From: an uncultured Bartonella sp.
Lineage (GTDB): Bacteria; Pseudomonadota; Alphaproteobacteria; Rhizobiales; Rhizobiaceae
Direction of reading: 5' to 3'
Length of the DNA: 64,000 nt
NCBI GenBank assembly: GCA_946478665.1
Contig: CAMLCZ010000006.1
Location: forward strand, 1 to 64,000
Positions 28,784 to 30,265 of the stretch are shown here, piece by piece; the first letter of the stretch is position 1, and every line of letters begins with the position of its first letter. A model generated the notes under the pieces. The model did no database searches, was not told the origin of the DNA, and worked only from the letters and a program-made list of their open reading frames with translations. Both the position numbers and the translations under genes were made by a program.

Positions 28784-28810
28784 CATTTCACACAACCAAT
28801 AATATTTATG

Positions 28811-28843
28811 AAAAGCGGTGTTCTATAAAACACCGCTTTTTTG
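28811..28843 (+). terminator. Terminator after leuB
   Basis: AAAAGCGGTGTT (28811-28822) and AACACCGCTTTT (28829-28840) form a stem with a 6-base loop, followed by a T run. Confidence 0.88.
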
Positions 28844-28961
28844 TTTTGAGAAACGTACCGATTTCAGCTTTTTACAAACAACGCAACTTCAGCATTTTAC
28901 TGACACAGAAAAGGATTATTCGTGTCAACAATACTTTATTTGTTCATTTGTCTGGTGTTTC

Positions 28962-28989
28962 TTGACAGTAGTGTAAAATACGGTAAAAC
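28962..28989 (+). promoter_or_regulatory. Possible promoter of the asd transcript
   Basis: TTGACA (28962-28967), a 16-base spacer and TAAAAC (28984-28989) lie between the leuB terminator and the leader frame. The -35 is consensus and the -10 is weak. A second TTGACA at 29084-29089 lies inside the leader frame and has no convincing -10. Confidence 0.4.
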
Positions 28990-29011
28990 AAACCTATTCA
29001 AGGAGCGTATA

Positions 29012-29128
29012 ATGGATATTCATTCATTTTCAGTGCAAAGGTTATACAGTCACGACAGTGACTATAATTTTGCACGTCTATCCTTGACAATTATTGGCCA
29101 CAAAAAAACGACAAAGAAAATTATCTGA
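29012..29128 (+). CDS. Candidate asd leader peptide (38 codons)
   Basis: An ATG at 29012 is preceded by AAGGAGCG (29000-29007) at good spacing and opens a 38-codon frame that ends 14 bases before the structured element in front of asd. The last residues before the stop are His-Lys-Lys-Thr-Thr-Lys-Lys-Ile-Ile, preceded closely by Thr-Ile-Ile. Lys, Thr and Ile are all made from aspartate semialdehyde, the product of Asd. Runs of regulatory amino-acid codons at the end of a short leader frame are the hallmark of ribosome-mediated attenuation. I see no similarity to a known protein domain, so it is called as a leader peptide by inference. Confidence 0.5.
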   Translation: MDIHSFSVQRLYSHDSDYNFARLSLTIIGHKKTTKKII

Positions 29129-29222
29129 TGTCCCTTGGCCAACCTGCTCTCTCCCGGGTACGGCCCGGGGAAGAAAGCCTGACGGCCGCCGGGCTTCTTC
29201 AATAACTGGAGAGAGACAGGAG
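29094..29222 (+). promoter_or_regulatory. Structured asd leader: three-way junction overlapping the Shine-Dalgarno
   Basis: A GC-rich island in AT-rich DNA folds well. P1 pairs CCTG plus CTCTCTCC (29143-29154) with GGAGAGAG plus CAGG (29208-29215 and 29217-29220; A29216 bulged). P2 is CGGG/CCCG at 29155-29167 with a 5-base loop. P3 pairs GAAGAA plus GCC (29170-29179) with GGC plus TTCTTC (29192-29200). The 3' arm of P1 contains CAGG of the asd Shine-Dalgarno CAGGAG (29217-29222). Just upstream TTGGCCA (29094-29100) can pair with TGGCCAA (29136-29142), looping out the Lys/Thr/Ile codons. No U-run follows, so control is more likely translational than by termination. Confidence 0.65.
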
Positions 29223-29230
29223 TTACATAA

Positions 29231-30265
29231 ATGGGTTTTAAGGTTGCTGTTGCAGGTGCCACTGGTAATGTCGGCCGTGAGATGCTGAACATTCTTGAAG
29301 AACGTGGTTTCCCTGCTGATGAAGTTGTTCCTCTCGCGTCACGCCGTTCTTTGGGAACTGAAGTTTCCTATGGTGATAAGACACTCAAAGTCAAAGTTCT
29401 TGATAATTACGATTTCTCAGACACAGATATTTGCCTCATGTCGGCAGGTGGTAGTGTTGCAAAAGAGTGGGCACCAAAAATCGGTTCTGCCGGTTGCGTG
29501 GTCATTGATAACTCATCCGCTTGGCGTTACGATGCTGATGTCCCTCTTATCGTTCCAGAAGTTAATCCTGATGCAATTGCAGGATTTAAGCAACGCAATA
29601 TTATTGCCAATCCTAATTGTTCTACAGCACAGCTTCTTGTTGCTTTAAAGCCTTTACATGACGCAGCAACGATCAAGCGGGTTGTTGTTTCAACATATCA
29701 ATCTGTATCTGGCGCCGGTAAAGCTGGCATGGATGAACTGTTTGAACAATCACGGGCCGTTTTTGTGGCAGATCCTATTTCTATCAAGAAATTCACCAAA
29801 AGAATTGCCTTTAATGTCATTCCTCATATCGATGTTTTCATGGAAGACGGCTACACCAAAGAAGAATGGAAAATGGTTGCCGAAACCAAGAAAATGCTTG
29901 ATCCTAAAATCAAATTATCAGCAACAGCTGTTCGTGTTCCTGTTTTCATTGGTCATGGTGAAGCTGTAAATGTGGAATTTGAAAAACCAATCACGGCAGA
30001 TGAAGCACGTGAAATTTTGCGCAATGCACCTGGTTGCCAAGTTGTCGATAAGCATGAAGACGGCGGCTATATGACACCATACGAATGTGCTGGTGAAGAT
30101 GATACTTTCGTCAGCCGTATCCGTGAAGACATTACAGTCGAAAATGGTTTGGCATTTTGGGTTGTTGCGGACAATCTTCGTAAAGGTGCTGCGCTCAATG
30201 CTGTTCAGATTGCAGAACTTCTTATTGCACGCAATCTGATTTCACCACGTGCAAACAAAGCATAA
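29231..30265 (+). CDS. asd: Aspartate-semialdehyde dehydrogenase
   Basis: Reduces aspartyl-4-phosphate to aspartate semialdehyde, the branch point to lysine/diaminopimelate, threonine, isoleucine and methionine. The 344-residue protein has the NADP-binding AVAGATGNVGREML (residues 6-20), catalytic Cys130 in NPNCSTAQLL and the catalytic-His region RVPVFIGHGEAVNV. Length is normal. It is preceded by a probable regulatory leader and followed by a terminator, so it appears to be monocistronic. Confidence 0.96.
   Translation: MGFKVAVAGATGNVGREMLNILEERGFPADEVVPLASRRSLGTEVSYGDKTLKVKVLDNYDFSDTDICLMSAGGSVAKEWAPKIGSAGCVVIDNSSAWRYDADVPLIVPEVNPDAIAGFKQRNIIANPNCSTAQLLVALKPLHDAATIKRVVVSTYQSVSGAGKAGMDELFEQSRAVFVADPISIKKFTKRIAFNVIPHIDVFMEDGYTKEEWKMVAETKKMLDPKIKLSATAVRVPVFIGHGEAVNVEFEKPITADEAREILRNAPGCQVVDKHEDGGYMTPYECAGEDDTFVSRIREDITVENGLAFWVVADNLRKGAALNAVQIAELLIARNLISPRANKA

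Follow-up and report, generated by a model that had tools for sequence, protein, structure and literature searches.

Leader peptides upstream of amino acid biosynthesis genes

The enzyme encoded by asd produces the last intermediate shared by the routes to lysine, threonine, methionine, isoleucine, and diaminopimelate (a building block of the cell wall). In the enterobacteria, a leader peptide of this pathway, thrL, is located before thrABC; it uses Thr and Ile codons and acts together with a strong intrinsic terminator. In alphaproteobacteria, a leader of ilvB has been described (Vitreschak 2004, as cited in PMC1273637), and the trpL of Sinorhizobium meliloti has been reported as a leaderless transcript (PMC10117765). 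The closest case that we found is SEP5 of S. meliloti 2011, a translated short frame in the 5'-UTR of an "aspartate dehydrogenase" gene, with six Thr and three Lys codons clustered at its 3' end (Hadjeras et al. 2023, PMC10117765). Its authors suggest that SEP5 may be a leader peptide and report its conservation in Sinorhizobium only. We read the gene downstream of SEP5 as asd because the authors refer to the synthesis of threonine and lysine. The original prediction for the locus studied here knew of no asd attenuator described in alphaproteobacteria, but a leader of this kind had been proposed for S. meliloti in 2023 (PMC10117765). Apart from that article, no description of such an asd leader appeared in the literature searched, which included few subscription journals.

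The leader ORF and its genomic context

The window, as we call the whole stretch of 64,000 nucleotides analyzed, comes from an uncultured Bartonella sp. with a genome of 2.31 Mb, and the leader, asd, and RNA features described below are all on its forward (+) strand. The original prediction was of a 38-codon frame with a Shine-Dalgarno sequence, ending in Lys-Lys-Thr-Thr-Lys-Lys-Ile-Ile and separated by 102 bases from asd, and every one of these elements is present. The leader ORF (29012..29128, 38 codons plus TGA) reads MDIHSFSVQRLYSHDSDYNFARLSLTIIGHKKTTKKII and ends in the codon run AAA AAA ACG ACA AAG AAA ATT ATC (29102..29125). Its Shine-Dalgarno sequence AAGGAG (29000..29005) is placed 6 bases 5' of the ATG. 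An alternative in-frame GTG start at 28922 would give a product of 68 aa; the AAGGAG, the ATG behind it, and the length of exactly 38 aa are each retained in 13 of 13 close genomes. The putatively regulated gene, asd (aspartate-semialdehyde dehydrogenase, 29231..30265; NCBIfam TIGR01296, PRK14874), has its own Shine-Dalgarno sequence, AGGAG, at 29218..29222, and the 102 bases are counted from the leader stop to its ATG (29231). No NCBIfam family matched the leader peptide.

The gene upstream of the leader is leuB (NCBIfam TIGR00169). Between the two there is a strong terminator-like hairpin (28810-28841), so the asd leader is probably part of an independent transcript. A candidate promoter for the leader-asd transcript, TTGACA-N16-TAAAAC (28962..28989), was recognized by eye; TTGACA followed by TAAAA at a spacing of 13 to 20 nt is found in 13 of 13 close genomes, and a sigma-70 scan of the window did not report the pair at 28962-28989. 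The N-terminal half of the leader also contains a long hairpin (GTGCAAAGGTTATACAGTCACGACAGTGACTATAATTTTGCAC, 29033-29075), which by eye is kept in two genomes of the clade (L003 and L004), the other ten being without the same sequence.

Conservation of the leader in the family and beyond

We considered as a Lys/Thr-rich leader any frame with at least five Lys or Thr among its last 10 residues that ends 60 to 160 bases before asd. Upstream of asd, 96 of the 109 regions sampled in the other genera of the family contain such a frame, and the reverse strand of the same regions yielded 0 of 109. The commonest ending outside Bartonella is of the Lys-Thr-Val type (KTTxKTV), and the last seven codons of the window run align codon by codon with this K-T-T-x-K-T-V. 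The pattern AARACNACNNNNAARACNGTNTGA (KTTxKTV followed by a stop) has 62 matches in 62 of the 161 genomes of the family, never more than one per genome and all of them directly upstream of asd, and a reversed control pattern had zero matches in the same 161 genomes. When combined with CTTGGCC, the motif was found in at least 116 stretches of named genomes, belonging to Mesorhizobium, Phyllobacterium, Brucella/Ochrobactrum, Pseudochrobactrum, Falsochrobactrum, Rhizobium, Bartonella, and others. We examined 80 of these stretches: two end at the edge of the locus and 78 have asd 86 to 104 bases further on, i.e., all 78 named loci with enough flank, among loci preselected by the motif plus CTTGGCC.

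The leader exists in a long form, with the stop roughly 100 to 120 bases before asd, and, in some genomes, in a short form with the stop 76 to 88 bases before asd (MTTIKTKTTI is one example and MMTPTHSSSKTTTTL another). In six loci (L091, L098, L133, L174, L175, and L179), the short form ends 76 to 82 bases before asd and by eye has no clear ribosome site; these short leaders could possibly be leaderless transcripts, like trpL of S. meliloti. Outside the family but within the order, a Lys/Thr-rich leader was found in 15 of the 25 assessable best-matching loci and in 14 of 40 further loci, and in other orders of the class in one genome out of 20. No leader with at least six Lys or Thr in 10 residues was found before homoserine dehydrogenase in the 28 of 30 loci in which the upstream region was covered (L402 and L413 were excluded, as the open frame passes the start of the locus).

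Within Bartonella, asd upstream regions were read in 70 of 71 genomes (G010 was left out). Thirteen of the 70, counting the window's own genome, carry the ORF at its exact length of 38 codons, with its ribosome site unchanged and a KTTKKII end; the ending is KKTTKKII in 12 of them and IKTTKKII in one, the N-terminal part of the peptide is variable, and their Asd proteins are 93 to 100% identical to that of the window. A more distant Bartonella (L015) has a 39-codon ORF ending in KYKTLKTR, and the run is absent or degraded in the other 56 genomes, a few of which have endings such as TKMKSMKPTI. The conservation in relatives that was expected for a genuine leader is therefore borne out, with start, length, and run kept in part of Bartonella and a Lys/Thr version in most of the regions from other genera. 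As for the proposed Lys/Thr/Ile signal, Lys plus Thr is the conserved part, but the Ile-Ile end is confined to one Bartonella clade.

We also considered whether the run was lost together with the synthesis of threonine or branched-chain amino acids. This explanation was not supported: among the 56 genomes without the run, thrC is kept in 45 and ilvD in 46 (over the cut-off), each of the two genes being over the cut-off in 59 of the 71 Bartonella genomes overall. Upstream of asd in seven other Bartonella loci (L021, L023, L037, L044, L046, L055, and L057), there are K-P-x-K-P-T-I-like ends that resemble remnants of the leader run. Separately, three Bartonella genomes carry partial second copies of asd directly 3' of the gene (G023:C1:1441953-1442204, G039:C4:27988-28227, and G027:C1:1653742-1653876), two of which contain stop codons.

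Codon usage and codon differences in the leader

On both strands of the window there are 3700 stops preceded by eight open codons, and in only one case, this leader, are the last eight codons all Lys, Thr, or Ile, while composition alone predicts about 1.1e-6 per stop. The assertion that the run was unlikely to have arisen by chance is thus well founded. The leader region has a GC content of 35 to 40%, as would be expected of a chance AT-rich frame, but the leader is unique in the window and is kept in genomes in which the 4-kb locus has 41 to 67% GC. Its Lys codons also run against the usage of the adjacent gene: among 29 loci of the family, those with the leader have 45 AAA vs. 1 AAG in its last seven codons, whereas the asd genes of the same 29 loci have 89 AAA vs. 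578 AAG. A fortuitous frame is therefore hardly conceivable.

In the two larger length groups of the named leaders, the last 12 codons differ mainly in their third base (0, 41, and 122 at positions 1, 2, and 3 in the 43-codon leaders; 28, 43, and 89 in the 44-codon leaders), a bias that is absent from the small 42-codon group (4, 0, and 1 in six sequences). Among gaps, 74 of 231 inside the ORF and 74 of 453 after the stop are multiples of three, a weak indicator of frame, as the N-terminal part aligns poorly. This third-position bias in the terminal codons would also be expected if the 38-aa product were a functional small protein, placed before asd in an operon-like arrangement, and a tagged S. 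meliloti SEP5 is, according to PMC10117765, soluble and visible on a Western blot. However, the N-terminal two thirds of the peptide differ strongly among genera and even inside one genus, while the Lys/Thr codons persist together with the RNA that follows, and short forms such as MTTIKTKTTI and MMTPTHSSSKTTTTL exist. We consider such a function of the peptide itself very improbable. The free variation of the peptide start also suggests why a protein search found the leader in one genus only.

RNA elements between the leader and asd

The segment between the leader stop and asd has a recurrent order of elements, namely, R2 (TCCCTTGGCC) after the stop, an A-box and the hairpin 3a:3b, the hairpin P4, a B-box, and the ribosome site of asd. 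In the window, R2 is TCCCTTGGCCAA (29131..29142), right after the leader stop; in 96 of 100 sequences, a GGCC lies no more than 23 alignment columns from the stop, and an R2-like element, CCTTGRCYAA, is kept in 27 of the 56 Bartonella genomes without the run. By folding, R2 can pair with R1, TTGGCCA, located within the leader codons (29094..29100). The GGCC of R1 is present in the matching codons of 73 of 81 sequences, and in 69 of these 73 its reading frame differs from that of the window; this suggests that the RNA itself is under constraint. Counts of pairing define the A-box, CTCTCTCC (29147..29154), as the 5' strand of a long-range helix, A:B, with the B-box, GGAGAGAG (29208..29215), as its 3' strand, two bases before the AGGAG of asd. 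The hairpin 3a:3b (CCCGGG ... CCCGGG, 29153..29169) rests on the same counts, and P4 (GAAGAAAGCC ... GGGCTTCTTC, 29170..29200), a weak terminator-like hairpin in part of the relatives, on both folding and counts.

Among 100 aligned sequences, A:B is paired in 91.4% of the cells with 37 double-change cells (slid registers give 46 to 72% and at most 12), 3a:3b in 93.3% with 27 (slid, at most 6), and P1, a small hairpin formed by the tail codons of the leader, in 91.2% with 36 (slid, at most 4); double-change counts include lineage effects, and the direct counting of named helices leans toward the consensus. P4 is paired in 86.1% of the cells, and its 33 double-change cells compare with up to 32 in slid registers; hence, it is backed by pairing but not by covariation. 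In 68 distinct tails, P1 takes the forms GACC..GGTC (22), GACG..CGTC (6), and CACC..GGTG (2), variants that differ mainly at third codon positions. All four of its pairs are formed in 30 of the 68 tails, whereas swapping the strands gives 17.7 on average and 25 at most; the P1 of the window is imperfect, with three of four pairs (GACA:TATC).

In an alignment-free test, native duplexes were compared with those obtained by swapping partners among 81 sequences. The native duplex was stronger for 3a:3b (-18.95 vs. -16.63), 3a:B (-13.81 vs. -12.75), and R2:3b (-17.55 vs. -16.39), the last of which indicates that R2 could compete with 3a for 3b. There was no clear native gain for R2:P4 (-14.79 vs. 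-14.66), R2:B (-14.81 vs. -14.99), or R2:R1 (-11.19 vs. -11.23), i.e., no covariation between R1 and R2 in these 81 sequences. The fold of the window leader has a z score of -3.47 against shuffles. The RNAalifold consensus for the MAFFT alignment of 100 sequences was nearly empty (-4.3 kcal/mol), presumably as a result of variable spacers that put the long-range helices out of register in the alignment. A known cis-regulatory RNA was rejected, since nothing in Rfam exceeded the gathering score at the leader: all 13 hits in the window segment 28780-29300 fell below it, and the sole hit in 14 relatives was an ffh sRNA outside the leader (L083, 2794-2845).

A putative attenuator responding to lysine and threonine

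The conserved frame with its codon run, its place before asd, and the covarying helices were all established directly here, and with these in hand, we consider it very likely that the leader is a cis-acting, ribosome-mediated attenuator of asd, whatever its output, that senses the supply of Lys and Thr. The ribosome would translate the short leader and come to the series of Lys and Thr codons at its end (joined by Ile in the clade of the window), where it would pause if charged tRNA-Lys or tRNA-Thr were scarce. Such a pause would open the helices that involve these codons (P1 within them and R1:R2 across them) and free R2. R2 might then take 3b, leaving the A-box caught in a loop, so that A:B would be weakened and the start of asd exposed. 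The altered pairing of 3a:3b, P4, and A:B would in this way raise the expression of asd and supply the common precursor of both amino acids. That the ribosome stalls under starvation, that this raises expression, and the step at which the output would act are our inferences.

Regarding the output, we lean toward the translation start of asd, controlled through A:B and supplemented in some genera by termination at P4, because A:B adjoins the ribosome site of asd, downstream of any possible terminator. Equilibrium folding of 81 sequences does not support a simple accessibility switch at this site (the non-order part of a set of 95 sequences behaved alike). The asd ribosome site is unpaired at 0.39 in the free RNA, 0.36 with a paused ribosome, and 0.42 with the ribosome at the stop; from free to paused, accessibility drops by more than 0.1 in 21 of the 81 sequences and rises in 13. 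The corresponding values for the window are 0.41, 0.36, and 0.41, and R2:3b does not form in its equilibrium fold, in which A:B and R2:3b are unchanged by the position of the ribosome. Over the 81 sequences, the mean number of A:B pairs falls from 4.58 when the ribosome is at the stop to 4.19 in the free RNA and 3.83 in the paused state, and that of R2:3b pairs, hardly formed overall, is 0.40, 1.06, and 1.72, respectively. At equilibrium, therefore, the helices shift slightly along the direction of the model and accessibility shifts slightly in the opposite one.

The same leader might instead act by transcription termination at P4, as in trp or thr, with stalling preventing the formation of P4 and transcription otherwise stopping short of asd, a reading that we regard as possible but doubtful. 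T-tailed hairpins at P4 are more frequent than in shuffles, both with at least five T in eight (18 of 95 sequences vs. 5.6 expected) and with at least four (38 of 95 vs. 16.9), and in some sequences GGGUCC:GGACCC, pairing the 3a loop with the 5' arm of P4, was seen by eye as a possible antiterminator. However, the reverse strand reaches 9 sequences at five T and 24 of 95 at four, 57 of the 95 sequences have no tail even at four T, and the window has none at five. The covarying A:B, located beyond the terminator and beside the asd ribosome site, would moreover be superfluous if termination were the only output. The finding of no general intrinsic terminator would suit Rho-dependent attenuation, in which a C-rich segment set free between leader and asd would be a loading site for Rho that the ribosome on the leader hides or exposes. 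Pyrimidine-rich segments can be recognized by eye at the A-box and, in many relatives, after P4, but the A-box sits within conserved helices, and we consider the involvement of Rho unlikely.

Going back to control at the asd start, we propose, only tentatively, a more specific version in which the leader is a widespread dual-input switch that reads the charging of both tRNA-Lys and tRNA-Thr, its output being mainly the translation start of asd via A:B and not a terminator. The Thr and Val codons would here, through their wobble positions, also form covarying RNA stems, and AAA would be preferred for Lys as the codon that responds most strongly to charging. A leader that reads the supply of Lys and Thr would let these bacteria tune the branch point at asd, and the natural variants, together with the RNA helices, make the mechanism directly testable.

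Comparison with known leader systems

Like thrL, the leader described here precedes a gene of the aspartate pathway and contains runs of codons for end products of this pathway. The differences are in the amino acids (Thr and Ile in thrL, Lys and Thr here), in the gene, which here is asd, and in the strong terminator of thrL, to which no general U-tailed terminator corresponds at these loci. The ilvB and trp leaders of alphaproteobacteria are likewise read by the ribosome and located before an amino acid biosynthesis gene, but they involve other amino acids and other genes.

SEP5 resembles the window leader in its position in the 5'-UTR of a gene that we take to be asd and in the cluster of Lys and Thr codons at its 3' end. 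Its description (PMC10117765) also fits leaders found here that end in KTTAKTTTKTV, with six Thr and three Lys codons (L141, for example). Matched by this description, SEP5 is very probably the S. meliloti counterpart of the window leader, and the asd leader is thus not wholly new. Whereas SEP5 is placed in a single genus by its authors, who as far as we saw give no RNA structure or mechanism for it, the leader is found here across the family and in part of the order, includes a Lys-Thr-Ile version in Bartonella, and is accompanied by conserved helices. What is added to the SEP5 proposal is this breadth, since a leader proposed for one genus is now seen in most genomes sampled from the family, along with the codon-by-codon match to Bartonella, the preference for AAA, and the RNA helices.
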